From Quadrisphaera sp. RL12-1S (GTDB lineage Bacteria; Actinomycetota; Actinomycetes; Actinomycetales; Quadrisphaeraceae): DNA of 64,000 nt. Both the position numbers and the translations under genes were made by a program. The notes under the pieces were generated by a model. It saw only the letters and a program-made list of their open reading frames with translations. It searched no databases and was not told the DNA's origin. Numbering within the stretch: the stretch's first letter is position 1; the number at the start of each line of letters is the position of its first letter. Below are positions 35,274 to 62,626 of this stretch, in pieces. The DNA lies in contig NZ_JACNME010000009.1 in NCBI RefSeq assembly GCF_014270065.1, forward strand, positions 62,001 through 126,000, in the 5' to 3' direction.

Positions 35274-35480
35274 TCAGGCGCCAGCGAGGCGGACGGCCTC
35301 CGCCTGCGGGCCCTTCTGACCGGTGCCGACCTCGAACTCGACGGCCTGCCCCTCCTCGAGGGAGCGGTAGCCGTCCATCTGGATGGCGGACCAGTGGACG
35401 AAGACGTCCGGGCCACCGTCGACGGTGATGAACCCGTACCCCTTCTCAGCGTTGAACCACTTCACGGTTCCGAGTGCCAT
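35274..35480 (-). CDS. Cold-shock protein, CspA family
   Basis: 68 residues: a single cold-shock domain with RNP1 as KGYGFITV and RNP2 as VFVHWSAI, and start [14 protein letters not shown]. Binds single-stranded RNA and DNA and relaxes RNA secondary structure; in the cytoplasm. AGGAG lies at good distance before the ATG. The upstream gap of 380 bases probably contains a long 5' leader, as is usual for csp genes. Compare the three-domain relative at 49772-50623. Confidence 0.95.
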
Positions 35481-42159: not shown

Positions 42160-42170
42160 GAGGGATCTCC

Positions 42171-42266
42171 TCCATCGGTCCTGGCGGGAGCACCTGCCTC
42201 GTCCGCGGGGGACGTGCTGGTTGCTGCGGCGTCGACGAGCCAGGTCTCTCGGCCGCTCTGGATGGG
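42171..42266 (-). promoter_or_regulatory. SAM-I (S-box) riboswitch, flavin reductase leader
   Basis: Minus strand, 5' to 3': closing-helix strand CCATC (42265-42261), CAGAGCGGCCGAGAGACC, GGCTCG, GACGCCGCAGCAACC, a variable hairpin, AGGCAGGTGCT, and the closing strand GATGG (42176-42172) running straight into GGAGG and the start codon. The conserved GAGAGAC, GCAACC and GGTGCT blocks are those of the S-box aptamer. Because the SD overlaps the P1 helix, control is probably translational: SAM binding hides the SD. The aptamer closely resembles the one at 56405-56490. Confidence 0.88.
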
Positions 42267-42336
42267 CGACGTCGATCGTCCCCTGGCGCCCCCGCCGTGT
42301 CAACGCGAGCCCGCCCGGGCTGGCTAGCGTGGCGGC

Positions 42337-56383: not shown

Positions 56384-56404
56384 GGTGCGCTATTCTCCCG
56401 CCAC

Positions 56405-56490
56405 ACCATCCAGAGTGGCTGAGAGACCCGGCTCGCTGACGCCACAGCAACCACCCCCACAGGGCAGGTGCTACCGCCGGGACCGATGGA
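56405..56490 (+). promoter_or_regulatory. SAM-I (S-box) riboswitch, organosulfur operon
   Basis: Closing strand CCATC (56406-56410), CAGAGTGGCTGAGAGACCC, GGCTCG, GACGCCACAGCAACC, a short C-rich hairpin (56451-56464), AGGCAGGTGCT-like GGGCAGGTGCT, and closing strand GATGG (56485-56489). The GAGAGAC, GCAACC and GGTGCT blocks are the S-box core, almost the same as in the copy at 42171-42266. The closing helix runs into GGAGG (56488-56492), the SD of a short leader ORF, so SAM binding should silence its translation and, through it, the operon beginning at 56709. Confidence 0.9.
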
Positions 56491-56497
56491 GGTCTCC

Positions 56498-56524
56498 GTG
56501 TCGTCCTGCATGACCCCGCGCTGA
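56498..56524 (+). CDS. Eight-codon leader ORF after the riboswitch
   Basis: GTG TCG TCC TGC ATG ACC CCG CGC TGA encodes MSSCMTPR. GGAGG lies five bases before the GTG, better placed than for most genes here, and overlaps the riboswitch closing helix. Codons include one Cys and one internal Met, both sulfur amino acids. It ends six bases before a hairpin. A regulatory leader peptide coupling SAM (and perhaps Cys or Met) supply to the operon is suggested; the ORF is short and could be chance. Confidence 0.45.
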   Translation: MSSCMTPR

Positions 56525-56530
56525 GCCGTC

Positions 56531-56550
56531 GGCGCTGCTGTCACAGCGCC
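56531..56550 (+). terminator. Leader hairpin (possible attenuator)
   Basis: GGCGCTG-CTGTCA-CAGCGCC, a perfect 7-base stem with a 6-base loop, 6 bases after the leader ORF stop and about 160 bases before the operon's first gene. No T-run follows, so an intrinsic terminator is uncertain; a ribosome on the leader ORF would reach its base. The rest of the leader to 56708 is C-rich with no other clear feature; rho-dependent control is possible. Confidence 0.4.
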
Positions 56551-56708
56551 ACCGCCAGCGCGCCCCCGCGCCCCCTCTCCCGACCGCTGCCGCGCAGCCG
56601 CCGGGTCACTGCCGCACGCCCGCTGACGGGTGCCGGCCGCTCCCCCCCTGCCCACCAGCCCGCCAGCGGCCCGTGCCGCCGCTCGGGTAGTCCCTCCTGG
56701 AGAGACCC

Positions 56709-58118
56709 GTGTCCTTGCTCCGCCGCTCCCCCTCGCCGTCCCCTGCGTCCGGCTCCACCTCCGACCTGGCGCGAGCTGCTGCGCTGTCGCGTCGCCAGCT
56801 GCTGCGCGCCGGCGTGCTGCTCGGCGGGGCCGCCGCCACCGCCGGGTCGCTGGCCGCCTGCGGCTCCGGTGGCGGCGGCGAGGCGCTCGCCGCGCCCAGC
56901 GGAGACCCGACCAGCGCCCTGCAGGGCAAGACGCTGAAGCTCATGGTCAACCAGCCGCACGTGGTGGCCTTCCGCGACCTCCTGGCGCCGGAGTTCGCGA
57001 AGCAGTTCGGCGGGACGCTGGAGGTCACGGCCATCCCGTACGACCAGCTGACGAGCAAGCAGATCCTCGACGTGCAGGGCGGGGCGGGCGAGTTCGACGT
57101 CTTCGACTACTTCTACTTCGGCCTCGGCGCCCTCGTCGACGCCGGCGCCCTCGTCGACCTCACCAGCTACATCGGCGGGGACGCGGACATCAAGACCGAC
57201 GACTTCCTGCCGTCGATCTACGACGTCTACAGCAAGATCGACGACAAGCGCTACGGCCTGCCGTTCGACGGCGACACCCACGTCCTCTACTACAACGTGG
57301 CCCTGCTGGAGCAGTACGGCCAGCAGCCGCCGAAGACCTGGGACGAGTACGACGCCGTGACCAAGGCGATCACGCAGGCCGGCGGCGGGAAGGTCTACGG
57401 CGCCGCGGTGCTGGGCCAGCAGGTGCCGATGATCCTGGGCTGCTCGTTCGTCAACCGCCTCGCCGGCTACGGCGGCACGCTCGTGGACGCCGAGGGCAGG
57501 CCCACGCTGACCTCCGACGCCGCCAAGGCGTCCCTGCAGCACCTCCTCGACGTGCAGCCCTACGCGCTGCCGACGCCGCTGCAGGTGGGCTTCGACGAGT
57601 CCAACAGCGCCTTCCTCCAGGGCACCGCCGCGATGATCGACACCTGGACGGACCTGGGCCTGCGCGCCAACGACCCGGCCAACTCGAAGATCGTCAACGG
57701 GTGGGGCGTGGTGCCGCTGCCCGTCGGCGGCTCCAACACCACGCCGCGCACCGCCCTCAACGCCGGCTTCGGCCTGGGCGTGTCCACCGCGAGCAAGGAG
57801 CGCGAGGCCGCCGCAGCGTTCGTGGCCTGGGCGACGGACAGCACCCGCAACCTCGAGCTCGCCAGCCACGGCGGCTCGGGCATCGACCCCAACCGCACCA
57901 GCGTGCTCGACTCGCCCGGGTACGCCGAGGCCAGCGCACCGGCCACCGAGGTCATCGCCACCGGGCTGCGCGGAAACCCTCTGCCGTGGCCCACCGACGC
58001 CCAGTCGCCCAAGCGCATGCAGGACCTCGTCGACCAGCTGGCCCTGGCGCTGTCCGGCTCGCAGGACGTCGAGACGTCGCTGTCCAAGGCGCAGGCGGCC
58101 TGGGAGAAGAGCGCGTGA
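56709..58118 (+). CDS. ABC transporter solute-binding lipoprotein (organosulfur operon)
   Basis: 469 residues. Tat-type signal (ALSRRQLLRAGVLLGG) with lipobox LAAC, so lipid-anchored outside the membrane. The mature part is a family-1 solute-binding protein (LKLMVNQPHVVAFRDLLAPEF, FDVFDYFYFG, LPFDGDTHVLYYNVALLEQYG), the class that normally binds sugars or polyols. It is the first gene of the S-box operon, so its ligand is probably a sulfur-containing compound; a sulfonated or otherwise sulfur-bearing sugar would fit both facts. The GTG has GGAG seven bases upstream. Confidence 0.88.
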   Translation: MSLLRRSPSPSPASGSTSDLARAAALSRRQLLRAGVLLGGAAATAGSLAACGSGGGGEALAAPSGDPTSALQGKTLKLMVNQPHVVAFRDLLAPEFAKQFGGTLEVTAIPYDQLTSKQILDVQGGAGEFDVFDYFYFGLGALVDAGALVDLTSYIGGDADIKTDDFLPSIYDVYSKIDDKRYGLPFDGDTHVLYYNVALLEQYGQQPPKTWDEYDAVTKAITQAGGGKVYGAAVLGQQVPMILGCSFVNRLAGYGGTLVDAEGRPTLTSDAAKASLQHLLDVQPYALPTPLQVGFDESNSAFLQGTAAMIDTWTDLGLRANDPANSKIVNGWGVVPLPVGGSNTTPRTALNAGFGLGVSTASKEREAAAAFVAWATDSTRNLELASHGGSGIDPNRTSVLDSPGYAEASAPATEVIATGLRGNPLPWPTDAQSPKRMQDLVDQLALALSGSQDVETSLSKAQAAWEKSA

Positions 58119-59014
58119 GCACCAGCGCCCCCGCCGCCGCCCCCGCGGTGCGCCACGTCCCGCGGTGGCTCTCGCTGCCGCCGCTGGTGGCCATCGCCGT
58201 CCTGCTCGTCTACCCGACGGTGTTCGTGGTCGCGGCGAGCTTCACCAGGACGACGCTGGCCCGCCCCCTGCAGGAGTGGACGGGTTTCACCAACCTCACC
58301 TCGGCACTGCAGGCGGAGGCCTTCGCGGGCTCGCTCGTGCGCACGGTCGTGTTCGCGGTGAGCGCCGCGGTGCTAGCGACGGCCGTCGGCACAGCGGTGG
58401 CGCTGCTGCTGCGCGCCCGCGGTGGCGGGTTCGGGGTCCTCGGCACGCTGCTGCTCCTGCCGCTCGTCACCCCGCCGGTCATGGTGGGCGTGGCGTGGAA
58501 GCTGCTCCTGGCCCCGGCCGGCGGTGCGCTCACCAGCACCATCAGCTCCCTCGCCGGGACGCCGGTGAACCCGCTCGGCTCGTCGAGCACGGCGCTGGGC
58601 ACGCTCGTCCTCATCCACGTGTGGCAGTGGACGCCGCTGGTGGTGCTGCTCGTCTTCGCGTCCCTGCTGGGCGTGCCGGACGAGCTGCTCGAGGCCGCCG
58701 CGCTCGACGGCGCGGGCGCGCTGCGCACGTTCACCGCGGTGACCTGGCCGGTGGTGGCGCCGACGGTCCTGTCGGTGCTGTTCCTGGAGCTGGTGGTGGG
58801 CTTCAAGGTGTTCGACCTCGTCGCGGTGGTCACCTCCGGCGGTCCGGGCCTGTCGACGGTCGTGGCGAGCTTCGAGGTGTTCCGCACCGGGCTCCGGGGC
58901 GACTACGACGTCGGCACCGCCGCCGCCATGACCCTCGTGCTGGGCCTGCTGGTGGGCGTGGTCACCGCCGGCGTCTCGGCGCTGCGCACCCGCGCCGCGA
59001 GGGCCGAGTCGTGA
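58115..59014 (+). CDS. ABC transporter permease, MalF/UgpA type
   Basis: 299 residues with six membrane helices (from LSLPPLVAIAVLLVYPTVFVVA onward). The ATPase-contact loop is PDELLEAAALDGAGALRTFTAVTWPVV. First membrane subunit of the importer; its GTG overlaps the binding-protein stop by four bases (58115-58118). No ATPase gene follows. Confidence 0.92.
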   Translation: MSTSAPAAAPAVRHVPRWLSLPPLVAIAVLLVYPTVFVVAASFTRTTLARPLQEWTGFTNLTSALQAEAFAGSLVRTVVFAVSAAVLATAVGTAVALLLRARGGGFGVLGTLLLLPLVTPPVMVGVAWKLLLAPAGGALTSTISSLAGTPVNPLGSSSTALGTLVLIHVWQWTPLVVLLVFASLLGVPDELLEAAALDGAGALRTFTAVTWPVVAPTVLSVLFLELVVGFKVFDLVAVVTSGGPGLSTVVASFEVFRTGLRGDYDVGTAAAMTLVLGLLVGVVTAGVSALRTRAARAES

Positions 59015-59973
59015 CCCAGCTCGCCGAGCAGCGCTCCGCCACCGCTGCGCAGGAGGCCCCCGTGACCACCTCAGCCACGACAGCCACCACGACGACGAGC
59101 GCTGCGGAGCTGGAGCAGCTGCGCCGCGCACGGCCGCGCGGGCCGCACCGCCGGTCGCCGCTGGCGCAGGTCGGCGTGCGCCTGGCGCTGGTCCTCGTCG
59201 CCGTCGTCGCCCTGGCACCGGTGGCGTTCCTCGTGTCGCTGTCGGTGCGCTCCACCGACGACGTCCTCACTGGGTCCTGGCTGCCCGGCAGCGTCGCCGA
59301 CCTCGCCTGGGGCAACTGGACGGCCGCGTTCCGCACCATCCCGCTGGCGCACATGCTCGCCAACTCCTGGCTGGTCGCGCTCGGGTCGGCGCTGGTCACG
59401 GCCGTCGTCGCGGTGCCGGGCGCCTACGTCACCGCCCGTGCCGGCAGGAGCGGCGCCCGCCTGGGCGCGGCGCTGCTCGCGGGGTACTGCGCTCCGCCCG
59501 TCGTCGCCGTCCTGCCGCTGTTCTTCCTGCTGAAGGAGGTCGGCCTCACCAACAGCGTGGTCGGCCTGGCCCTGGTCAACGGCCTGGCCAACGCGCCGGT
59601 GGCCGTGTGGCTGCTCGACTCCTTCGTCCGCCGCGTCCCGGTGGAGCTGGAGGAGGCCGCCTGGCTCGACGGCCTGTCCGTGGCCGGGGGCCTGCGCCGC
59701 ATCGTGCTGCCGCTCGTCGCGCCCGGGCTCGTGGCGGCGCTGCTGGTGTGCACCTTCCTGGCCTACGGGGAGTTCCTCTTCGCCGTCTCGTTCGCGCAGA
59801 CCACCGCCAGCCAGCCGCTGACCGTGGGCCTGTCGCTCTTCCAGGGCGACCGCACCGTGCAGTTCGGCCAGCAGGCCGCTGCCGCACTGGTGGGCGTCGT
59901 CCCCGTGTACGTGCTCGCCGTCGTCGCCCAGCGCTGGCTGGTCGGCGGCCTGTCGCAAGGAGCCCTCAAGTGA
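59011..59973 (+). CDS. ABC transporter permease, MalG/UgpE type
   Basis: 320 residues: a hydrophilic N-terminal tail with a Thr/Ala run, then six membrane helices (VRLALVLVAVVALAPVAFLV to VPVYVLAVVAQRWLVGGL). The ATPase-contact loop is PVELEEAAWLDGLSVAGGLRRIVLPLV. It completes the channel. GTG overlaps the previous stop by four bases (59011-59014) and the next gene's GTG overlaps its own stop by four, so five genes are coupled in series. No ATP-binding subunit is encoded in the operon. Confidence 0.92.
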   Translation: MTQLAEQRSATAAQEAPVTTSATTATTTTSAAELEQLRRARPRGPHRRSPLAQVGVRLALVLVAVVALAPVAFLVSLSVRSTDDVLTGSWLPGSVADLAWGNWTAAFRTIPLAHMLANSWLVALGSALVTAVVAVPGAYVTARAGRSGARLGAALLAGYCAPPVVAVLPLFFLLKEVGLTNSVVGLALVNGLANAPVAVWLLDSFVRRVPVELEEAAWLDGLSVAGGLRRIVLPLVAPGLVAALLVCTFLAYGEFLFAVSFAQTTASQPLTVGLSLFQGDRTVQFGQQAAAALVGVVPVYVLAVVAQRWLVGGLSQGALK

Positions 59974-61460
59974 GCTCGCCTGACGTGCCCAAAGACCGGA
60001 TCTTCCTCAACGCCTTCGACATGACGTGCGTAGCGCACCAGTCACCCGGCCTGTGGCGGGTGCCCGGCGACCAGTCCCACCGCTACAACGACCTGTCGTA
60101 CTGGACCGACCTCGCGAAGCTGCTCGACCGGGGCGGCTTCGACGTCCTCTTCATCGCCGACGTCCTCGGCGTCTACGACGTCTACAAGGGCGGCCCGGAG
60201 ACGGCGCTCACCGAGGGCACCCAGGTGCCCGTGGGCGACCCGCTGCTCGCGGTCTCGGCGATGGGCGCGGTCACCGAGCGCCTCGGGTTCGCCCTGACGG
60301 TGTCGCTGACGTACGAGAAGCCCTACGCGCTCGCCCGCGACTTCGCCACGCTCGACCACTACACGCAGGGCCGCGTCGGCTGGAACGTCGTGACCTCCTA
60401 CCTGGAGAGCGCGGCGAAGAACCTCGGCCTGGACACGCAGGTCGAGCACGACCAGCGCTACGAGCTCGCCGAGGAGTTCCTCGACGTCACCTACCAGCTG
60501 TGGGAGGGCTCCTGGGAGGACGACGCCGTGGTGCGCGACGCCGCGCGCGGCGTCTACACCGACCCGGCGCGCGTCCACCCGGTCGAGCACCACGGCCACT
60601 ACTACGACGTGCCCGGCATCGCGCTGACGGAGCCGAGCCCCCAGCGCACGCCGTTCGTCTTCCAGGCCGGCGCGTCCCCGCGGGGCGTGCGGTTCGCCGC
60701 CCGGCACGCCGAGGCCGTCTTCAACACCGCCAGCCGGCCCGAGGTCATGCGGCCCCAGGTCGACGCGCTGCGCGCCGAGGCGGCGAAGGCGGGCCGCGAC
60801 CCGCGCAGCATCAAGGTGTTCTCGCTGCTCACCGTCATCACGGGCGCCACCGACGAGGAGGCGTGGGCGAAGTACTCCGACCTCAAGAGCTACGTCTCCT
60901 ACGACGGCGCGCTGACCCTGTACGCCGGCTGGAGCGGGCTGGACCTGTCCACGTACCCGCCGGACGAGCCGCTGGAGTACGCCGAGACCCAGGCCGTGCG
61001 CTCGGCGGTGGCTGCCTTCTCCACCGCTGACCCGGACCGGCAGTGGACCCCGCGCGACATCGCCGCGTGGGTGGGCATCGGCGGCATGGGCGTGGTCGTC
61101 GTCGGCGGCCCGCAGACGGTCGCGGACGAGCTGGAGCGCTGGGTGCGCGAGGCCGACGTCGACGGCTTCAACCTCGCCTACGCCACCACCCCGGGCACCT
61201 TCGAGGACGTCGTCGAGCACGTCGTCCCCGAGCTGCGCCGCCGAGGCCTCGTCCCCACCCAGGAGGAGAGGGACGCGCTGCCGGCCGGCACCACGCTGCG
61301 CGAGGCCGTCTACGGCGTCGGCAACAAGCGCATCGCCGAGGACCACCCGGCGGCCGCGCACCGCCGCGCCCTGCAGGCGAAGGCCGCCGCCCGCGCCGCC
61401 GCCGAGGACCCCTCCTCCACTCCCCCTTCCGCGACGATCAAGGAAGTTGCACCCCGATGA
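59970..61460 (+). CDS. NtaA/DszA-type FMNH2-dependent monooxygenase
   Basis: 496 residues of the luciferase-like NtaA/SnaA/DszA group: ILNAFDMTCVAHQSPGLWRVP-type start, FDVLFIADVLGVYDVYKGG, YALARDFATLDHYTQGRVGWNVVTSYLESAAKNLGL, EEFLDVTYQLWEGSWE, PSPQRTPFVFQAGASPRG. Known members oxidise sulfones, dimethyl sulfide or aminopolycarboxylates with reduced flavin from a separate reductase. S-box control makes organosulfur desulfurisation the best guess. A C-terminal Ala-rich extension of about 40 residues is unusual. AAGGAG precedes the GTG, which overlaps the permease stop. Confidence 0.9.
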   Translation: MSSPDVPKDRIFLNAFDMTCVAHQSPGLWRVPGDQSHRYNDLSYWTDLAKLLDRGGFDVLFIADVLGVYDVYKGGPETALTEGTQVPVGDPLLAVSAMGAVTERLGFALTVSLTYEKPYALARDFATLDHYTQGRVGWNVVTSYLESAAKNLGLDTQVEHDQRYELAEEFLDVTYQLWEGSWEDDAVVRDAARGVYTDPARVHPVEHHGHYYDVPGIALTEPSPQRTPFVFQAGASPRGVRFAARHAEAVFNTASRPEVMRPQVDALRAEAAKAGRDPRSIKVFSLLTVITGATDEEAWAKYSDLKSYVSYDGALTLYAGWSGLDLSTYPPDEPLEYAETQAVRSAVAAFSTADPDRQWTPRDIAAWVGIGGMGVVVVGGPQTVADELERWVREADVDGFNLAYATTPGTFEDVVEHVVPELRRRGLVPTQEERDALPAGTTLREAVYGVGNKRIAEDHPAAAHRRALQAKAAARAAAEDPSSTPPSATIKEVAPR

Positions 61461-62626
61461 GCACGGACTGGGCCCTCGCCGCCCGCGACGCCGCTGCCAA
61501 GCTCGCCGTCGACGCCCTCGAGCGCGACCGCGCCAACGCCGAGCCGCTCGCCGAGGCGCAGCTGCTGCGCGAGCACCGCCTGCCCGGCCTGCTGCTGCCC
61601 GTCGAGGTGGCAGGGGGCGGCGGCACCTGGGCGGACGCGCTGCGCGCCGTGCGCGAGGTGGCCGTGGCCGACGGCTCCATCGCTCAGCTGCTCGGCTACC
61701 ACTACGTCAACCAGGCCAACCTCGAGTGGGTCGCCGACGCCGCCACCCGCGAGTGCTGGCAGCGGCGCTCCGGCGCCGCGCAGTGGCTGTGGGGCGACGC
61801 GGTCAACCCCGTCGACCCGGACCTCACCCTCACCCCCTCGAGTGGGGGCGGCTACCGGCTGTCCGGCCGCAAGAGCTTCGCCACCGGCGCGAGCAGCGGC
61901 GACGCCGTCGTGGTGTCCGGCCAGGACTCCGAGACCGGTCGTGCGGTGCTCGTCGTCGTCGAGCGCGGGACGGCGGGCGTGCAGCCCGGCGGCGACTGGG
62001 ACAACCTCGGCCAGCGCCTGTCGGCGTCCGGCAGCGTCACCTTCACCGACGTGGAGGTGCCCGTTGAGAACGTGCTCGGGTTCCTCGACGGCGACGCCGC
62101 CACCCCCCGCGCCTCGCTGGTGACCCCGGCCATCCAGGCGGTGTTCGGGAACTTCTACGTGGGCGTGGTCCGCGGCGCCCTGCAGACGGCGGCGGAGTAC
62201 ACGAGGACGACGTCGAGGGCGTGGCTGCTGTCGGACTCCCCCAGCGCCGCGCAGGACCCGTACGTGCTGGCCACCTACGGCCGGCTGGTGGCGCGGCTGC
62301 GCGCTGCCGAGGCCCTGGCCGACCAGGCCGGGCAGGCGCTGGCCGCGGCGGACGCCGCCGGTGAGGCCCTCACCTGGGACGAGCGAGGCGAGCTGGCTGA
62401 GCTCATCGCCGCCCTCAAGGTCGTCTCCTCCGACCTGGCGGTGGAGGCGACGTCGGCGGTGTTCGAGGTGACGGGCGCCCGGGCGACGAGCAACCGGGTG
62501 GGCCTGGACCGGTTCTGGCGCAACGTGCGCACCCACACCCTGCACGACCCGGTGCAGTACAAGGCGCGCGAGGTGGGGGACCACTTCCTCAACGGCACCC
62601 ACCCGGAGTTCACGCTCTACACCTGA
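61457..62626 (+). CDS. Acyl-CoA-dehydrogenase-like flavoprotein (DszC/SfnB type)
   Basis: 389 residues with the acyl-CoA dehydrogenase fold: helical N terminus (LLREHRLPGLLLPVEVAGGGGTWADAL), beta domain (GGYRLSGRKSFATGASSGDAVVV, ASGSVTFTDVEVP) and helical C-terminal domain (FEVTGARATSNRVGLDRFWRNVRTHTLHDPVQYKAREVGDHFL). That last block with TSNRVGLDRFWRN is typical of DszC/SfnB-like flavin monooxygenases, which use reduced FMN and O2, rather than of true CoA-ester dehydrogenases. The ATG overlaps the monooxygenase stop by four bases. The two would oxidise a sulfur substrate in sequence, as DszC and DszA do. Confidence 0.88.
   Translation: MSTDWALAARDAAAKLAVDALERDRANAEPLAEAQLLREHRLPGLLLPVEVAGGGGTWADALRAVREVAVADGSIAQLLGYHYVNQANLEWVADAATRECWQRRSGAAQWLWGDAVNPVDPDLTLTPSSGGGYRLSGRKSFATGASSGDAVVVSGQDSETGRAVLVVVERGTAGVQPGGDWDNLGQRLSASGSVTFTDVEVPVENVLGFLDGDAATPRASLVTPAIQAVFGNFYVGVVRGALQTAAEYTRTTSRAWLLSDSPSAAQDPYVLATYGRLVARLRAAEALADQAGQALAAADAAGEALTWDERGELAELIAALKVVSSDLAVEATSAVFEVTGARATSNRVGLDRFWRNVRTHTLHDPVQYKAREVGDHFLNGTHPEFTLYT

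Follow-up and report, generated by a model that had tools for sequence, protein, structure and literature searches.

The S-box riboswitch described here stands ahead of an operon for an ABC transporter and flavin-dependent oxygenases, with an 8-codon reading frame in between, and this raises the question of which of the two the riboswitch acts upon and how a signal received by the aptamer would reach the operon. Within the window, by which we mean the whole 64 kb stretch of DNA analysed, the first elements of this leader region are as follows.

56391..56396 (+): probable -10 element TATTCT, from the position of TAnnnT in the order-wide S-box set
56403..56492 (+): SAM-I (S-box) riboswitch aptamer (RF00162, 57.5 bits, E 1.1e-10)
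56406..56410 (+): 5′ strand of P1, CCATC, from the sequence and the cmscan alignment
56485..56492 (+): 3′ strand of P1, GATGG (56485-56489), overlapping the Shine-Dalgarno (SD) sequence GGAGG (56488-56492), from the sequence
56498..56524 (+): leader ORF MSSCMTPR with GTG start and TGA stop, its frame, length, Cys4, Met5 and Arg8 being kept in four Quadrisphaera genomes

The match to RF00162 was full length (model positions 1-108) and exceeded the gathering score of 44.4, and the aptamer at 56403-56492 is predicted to bind SAM. Its 3′ end is GATGGAGG, and either this sequence or GATGGGAG was found again at most S-boxes of the order. Two G residues are common to P1 and the SD, the last two of GATGG being the first two of GGAGG; a short-ORF SD that overlaps the switching helix, as expected of a riboswitch-controlled upstream ORF (uORF), is thus present at 56488-56492. 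A survey of 126 distinct S-boxes from the order, in which short ORFs were defined as having at most 60 codons, detected TAnnnT in 89/126 cases at approximately 11-17 nt before the aptamer, compared with 7/378 control windows, and across these S-boxes transcription would accordingly begin at the aptamer edge. Since TATTCT is placed where TAnnnT precedes these 89 S-boxes, the transcript studied here probably also starts at the 5′ edge of its aptamer.

The leader ORF (GTG-TCG-TCC-TGC-ATG-ACC-CCG-CGC-TGA; 8 codons, with the stop codon ending at 56524) starts 5 nt past GGAGG and 8 nt past P1, the latter being also the commonest spacing at genes directly regulated by an S-box. This confirmed an earlier note on this DNA, which had described a closing helix overlapping GGAGG and, 5 bases on, an 8-codon ORF with Cys and Met codons. 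The check proposed there, conservation of the frame across related genomes, gave a positive result as well: the short ORF was kept in 4/4 Quadrisphaera genomes carrying the operon (MSSCMTPR, MSACMPQR, MSSCMPLR and MSPCMLER), with equal length and no indels, which is the conservation expected of a riboswitch-controlled uORF. All four peptides have one codon each for Cys4 and Met5, consistent with the presence of regulated amino-acid codons in the conserved leader of an attenuator, and Cys4 is retained despite a TGC/TGT change (TGC in three genomes, with ATG as next codon). Codons 2 and 4 display synonymous changes, and the amino acid changes freely at codons 3, 6 and 7. The 80 nt block from the SD to the hairpin described below was gapless in the four genomes, with 61/80 positions invariant, and the 140 alignment columns following it included 40 invariant and 49 gapped columns; four-fold sites in the adjacent gene were 51% invariant in the same comparison. 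The invariance of the ORF itself (20/27) was a modest excess over these four-fold sites (p 0.013), and the probability of keeping start, Cys, Met and stop codons at the neutral rate was about 6e-4. A synonymous-only signature in the ORF is not clear from these four close genomes, and conservation of Cys4 and Met5 could be due to pairing with the start codon rather than to codon reading, as CGUGU at the start codon pairs with the Cys4-Met5 region in a mini-hairpin in all four genomes. On this conservation, the ORF at 56498-56524 is probably translated. Two other Quadrisphaera congeners (G004 and G005) are without the solute-binding transporter gene and without the leader ORF, and their S-box runs directly into an NtaA-type monooxygenase gene, indicating that the leader ORF goes with the transporter operon. 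A search for the leader pattern in 297 genomes of the order returned the four Quadrisphaera genomes only, and a separate contig search recovered two of these four together with two unrelated metagenome matches.

The gating of leader ORFs by S-boxes looks recurrent in the order. The 126 surveyed S-boxes led directly to a gene in 60 cases, to a short ORF in 62 and to neither in 4, giving an ORF at SD distance for 122/126. An ATG or GTG was located 7-11 nt past P1 in 91/126 S-boxes and in 54/62 of the short-ORF cases, compared with 11.7% at control offsets, and the SD spacing of the short-ORF S-boxes equals that of directly regulated genes. This order-wide pattern argues for translation of the short frame behind an S-box much more strongly for the group than the four genomes do. 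Many of these ORFs have a common content: a Cys codon occurs within the last six codons of 40/62 (8.8 ± 2.8 in shuffles, 15 in the +1 frame and 5 in the +2 frame), and 41/62 contain an xDL motif such as RRHHVDLLRTASATCRP. The tested xDL-type leaders match the NCBIfam model cis_reg_atten, two of them above its cutoff, and S-box leader ORFs match or approach cis_reg_atten and the Cys leaders Ms4527A and Ms5788A. Leaders of the Cys or xDL type were detected in 21 genomes from at least 5 families, ahead of genes for sulfite reductase, Cys/Met PLP enzymes, rhodaneses and transporters; a sister S-box approximately 18 kb away in the same genome has the leader MLTRRLHIDLALTAGGGCQR (L002). The two-step control outlined below may thus be widespread in the order, and with 62/126 S-boxes and 21 genomes the layout is common enough for testing at many loci. 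If this control is real, an S-box without a gene at its SD would be a reason to look for a leader ORF, and frames of 8-40 codons in this position would be worth annotating.

The final Cys codon was TGT in 33/40 of the Cys-type leaders (e.g. L002, L117 and L137), whereas genes under direct S-box control use TGT for 15/87 of their Cys codons (Fisher p 2e-12); the TGT of the leaders is usually followed by C, an odd codon choice for GC-rich genomes. At metF-like genes, recognised by their N-terminal sequence (L025, L027, L082, L099, L138 and L152), the S-box is followed by an ORF of 11-32 codons with a 4 nt overlap with the gene start, which suggests termination-reinitiation as reported for PPE2 of M. 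tuberculosis (Mtb). Structure near the leader stop codons had a mean z of about -1 across the set, compared with -0.09 in coding controls, and pairing from the Cys codon was in slight excess over shuffles only, so we do not claim a stop-codon hairpin as a property of the class. In a class-wide sample of the 30 best-scoring S-box loci, one per genome (L198-L227), which favours high scores, the S-box was mostly located directly before one type of gene with no leader ORF, so that a class-wide layout is not supported by this sample. The gene in this sample resembles threonine synthase by its look, with the SD just past P1.

Downstream of the leader start, the following features were identified in the window.

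56517..56562 (+): 18 bp hairpin over the leader's last sense codon and stop codon, containing a perfect 7 bp stem (56531-56537/56544-56550); fold z -3.33
56563..56602 (+): C-rich, G-poor tract of rut-like composition, from C minus G
56699..56704 (+): SD GGAGAG of the first operon gene, from the sequence, with GGAG at the same place in all four genomes
56709..58118 (+): ABC transporter solute-binding lipoprotein, first operon gene (PF01547, 1e-34)
58115..59014 (+): ABC transporter permease 1 (PF00528)
59011..59973 (+): ABC transporter permease 2 (PF00528 marginal; sugar-type permease models)
59970..61460 (+): NtaA/DmoA-family FMN-dependent monooxygenase (TIGR03860, 3.5e-164)
61439..62626 (+): DszC/SfnB-like flavin-dependent oxidoreductase for organosulfur use (NF043015 1.6e-86 and TIGR04022 4.5e-72, both below cutoffs)

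The encoded lipoprotein, two permeases, NtaA/DmoA monooxygenase and DszC/SfnB-like oxidoreductase make this operon read as one for organosulfur scavenging, and its solute-binding gene is 93-95% identical among the four Quadrisphaera genomes. The earlier note was right in giving the first gene its own SD, but its distance of 160 nt was too short, as the gene starts 184 nt past the leader stop codon. The "perfect hairpin" of that note likewise exists as the 7 bp stem, but this is part of the longer 18 bp element, which overlaps the end of the ORF. None of 200 shuffles was as stable as this hairpin, and 91.7% of its pair cells were kept in the four genomes; covariation, which in these few and very similar sequences was not above that of shuffles, was dropped as proof of structure. 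For the C-rich tract immediately behind it, C minus G ranked in the top 0.06% of all 40 nt stretches across the 64 kb, and the hairpin is followed by a tract of this composition in the other three genomes as well (top 0.5-0.8%), though the sequence itself is not conserved. This composition is a weak hint of a Rho loading site. No intrinsic terminator was found behind the leader ORF, with neither a U tract nor a terminator-like match.

We consider it moderately probable that the locus as a whole functions as a translational SAM-I riboswitch gating the 8-codon leader ORF, with a probable Rho-dependent step before the operon. Transcription would begin at the aptamer edge, and with SAM bound, P1 (CCATC/GATGG) would hold part of GGAGG and leave the leader untranslated; the hairpin would then stay folded and the C-rich tract ribosome-free, and transcription would most likely end by the action of Rho at this tract, before the transporter and monooxygenase genes. 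At low SAM, P1 would open and allow ribosome entry at GTG 56498, and translation of the leader would pass the foot of the hairpin, briefly open its 18 bp and keep ribosomes close behind RNA polymerase; a ribosome at the leader stop codon would be expected to open most of the hairpin. Through its Cys and Met codons the leader may additionally sense Cys-tRNA or Met-tRNA, and it is plausible that these codons are read as a signal, although Cys sensing is less well motivated for MSxCMxxR than for the longer leaders. The genome comparison supports the aptamer, the overlap of SD and P1, the ORF, the hairpin, the conservation of these elements and the recurrence of their layout. The first layer, in which the aptamer gates translation of the short ORF as the earlier note had proposed, is well supported by the SD spacing, by the frame kept in 4/4 genomes and by the presence of such ORFs at about half of the order's S-boxes. 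For its second layer, in which the leader sets transcription or access of Rho, the conserved hairpin at the stop codon and the C-rich tract are compatible with the proposal and no further, as neither an intrinsic terminator nor a consistent unmasking of the first gene's SD was found. The contrast drawn there with a flavin reductase gene in the same window was borne out, as the S-box at this gene leads straight into it (L004).

42169..42268 (-): S-box at a flavin-reductase-like gene, 44.2 bits, just under the RF00162 cutoff of 44.4

Elsewhere in the window, a match to the cspA thermoregulator at 35334-35408 (-) was below threshold (24.7 bits versus 78) and is probably a cold-shock coding sequence.

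Other routes from the leader to the operon can be envisaged. The SAM riboswitch and a cysteine attenuator could form an AND gate, in which only low SAM permits translation and only a shortage of charged tRNA makes the ribosome stall at the Cys (or Met) codon, a stall that would refold the stop-codon hairpin and allow expression, so that low SAM and low cysteine would both be needed. The retention of Cys4 in all four genomes through the TGC/TGT change, the enrichment of Cys near the stop codon across S-box leaders (40/62 versus 8.8), the resemblance of this group to cis_reg_atten, Ms4527A and Ms5788A, and the Cys-responsive leaders reported in mycobacteria (PMC9094748 citing Canestrari 2020; PMC4633059) all speak for such a gate. 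We regard it as possible but doubtful for this locus, as MSxCMxxR has neither the xDL motif nor the terminal TGT-C context, has four sense codons from Cys to the stop codon instead of the usual short distance, and random 7-codon stretches would contain a single Cys in 17% of cases. Furthermore, a ribosome waiting at Cys4 would, judged by its footprint size, reach only about the first three pairs at the foot of the 56517-56562 hairpin, and hence Cys sensing through this hairpin is not favoured. Exclusive terminator or SD-sequestering folds that a stall could switch, as in attenuators, were not found either, since there is no terminator and unmasking of the first gene's SD was inconsistent. For the order as a whole, we tentatively suggest, with confidence short of even, that SAM-I riboswitches commonly act on cysteine-sensing leader ORFs as a low-SAM and low-cysteine gate, of which MSxCMxxR would be the shortest form seen, with a possible reading of Cys as well as Met.

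The SD of the first gene offers a different route, as UCUCC immediately behind the leader SD could pair with its GGAGA, and translation of the leader would then release this second SD (SD2), comparable to the SD1/anti-SD/SD2 scheme of the Mtb Mbox. Partition-function folds of the window gave an SD2 accessibility of 0.15, which increased to about 0.36-0.38 once the region of the leader start was left out, but the other three genomes did not respond consistently to the same removal (0.19 to 0.18, 0.38 to 0.50 and 0.30 to 0.34), and Q. granulorum carries UCACC in place of UCUCC. As the effect was clear for the window alone, we rejected a release of SD2 by leader translation as an element of the mechanism and think it very unlikely. 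The very stable, GC-rich 18 bp hairpin in its fixed place behind the ORF could alternatively terminate transcription intrinsically despite having no U tract, independently of Rho and under the control of leader translation; the C-rich spacer that follows it and the lack of both a U tract and a terminator-like match make this quite unlikely. It is also conceivable that the ORF is a relic or an accident, left where an S-box once controlled the monooxygenase directly and transporter genes came or went, with the aptamer now acting via Rho alone. The arrangement in G004 and G005, with the S-box directly at the NtaA-type monooxygenase and no transporter gene, fits this history, as do the free changes at codons 3, 6 and 7, but start, Cys, Met, Arg and stop have stayed in place, free of indels, in four genomes whose next 140 alignment columns drifted, the probability of neutral retention is low (about 6e-4), and an ORF is found at SD distance behind 122/126 S-boxes of the order, which renders such an origin unlikely.

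Riboswitch-gated translation of the leader ORF followed by a Rho-dependent step has its closest counterparts in mycobacteria. In the pe20 leader of Mtb, the Mbox riboswitch combines control by a short upstream ORF with Rho-dependent early termination (PMC12810186), and it shares with the Quadrisphaera locus a translational riboswitch platform acting on a short ORF ahead of an operon, the first Mbox uORF having several Cys codons (PMC12810186). The Mbox differs in having a Mg2+ aptamer, two uORFs and an anti-SD relay, whereas Quadrisphaera has a SAM-I aptamer, one 8-codon ORF and the SD in P1 itself. The B12 riboswitch leaders of Mtb (metE and ppe2) likewise contain a short ORF ahead of the gene, which alters gene expression (PMC11260477), but their aptamers bind B12 and the uORF of ppe2 runs into the gene start and works by termination-reinitiation, whereas a gap of 184 nt is present in Quadrisphaera. 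A SAM-I riboswitch of Xanthomonas also acts on translation and senses uncharged initiator tRNA (PMC7270179), and thus resembles the present locus in aptamer and level of control (PMC7270179); its second signal is a tRNA, with no short ORF mentioned in the accessible part of that source (PMC7270179).

Leaders with Cys codons have been described in Actinobacteria (PMC1262725; PMC4633059; PMC9094748), and those described by NF042934 (cis_reg_atten) and by mycobacterial Ms4527A and Ms5788A are similarly short Cys-containing ORFs before sulfur genes; other S-box leaders from the same genus and order match the NF042934 model. MSSCMTPR is different, as its 8 residues are too few for the 19-position model and the RRxHVDLxR motif is absent, including its RRxHVDL part, and it also lacks the Cys that leaders of the S-box set typically have a few codons ahead of their stop, mostly in TGT-C context; membership of cis_reg_atten was ruled out on motif and codon context. 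The mycobacterial Cys leaders are furthermore reported as leaderless (Canestrari 2020) and not riboswitch-gated, whereas the Quadrisphaera leader sits behind an S-box. No publication linking an S-box with a leader ORF was found, an absence that carries little weight as most subscription journals were outside coverage. Riboswitch-controlled uORFs and Cys leaders are each known separately, and the S-box joined to a leader ORF is apparently a new variant, which, if the proposed mechanism is true, would connect a leader-ORF attenuator in series with a metabolite riboswitch, and combine the SAM pool and the state of translation, possibly including Cys-tRNA or Met-tRNA, in one RNA leader.
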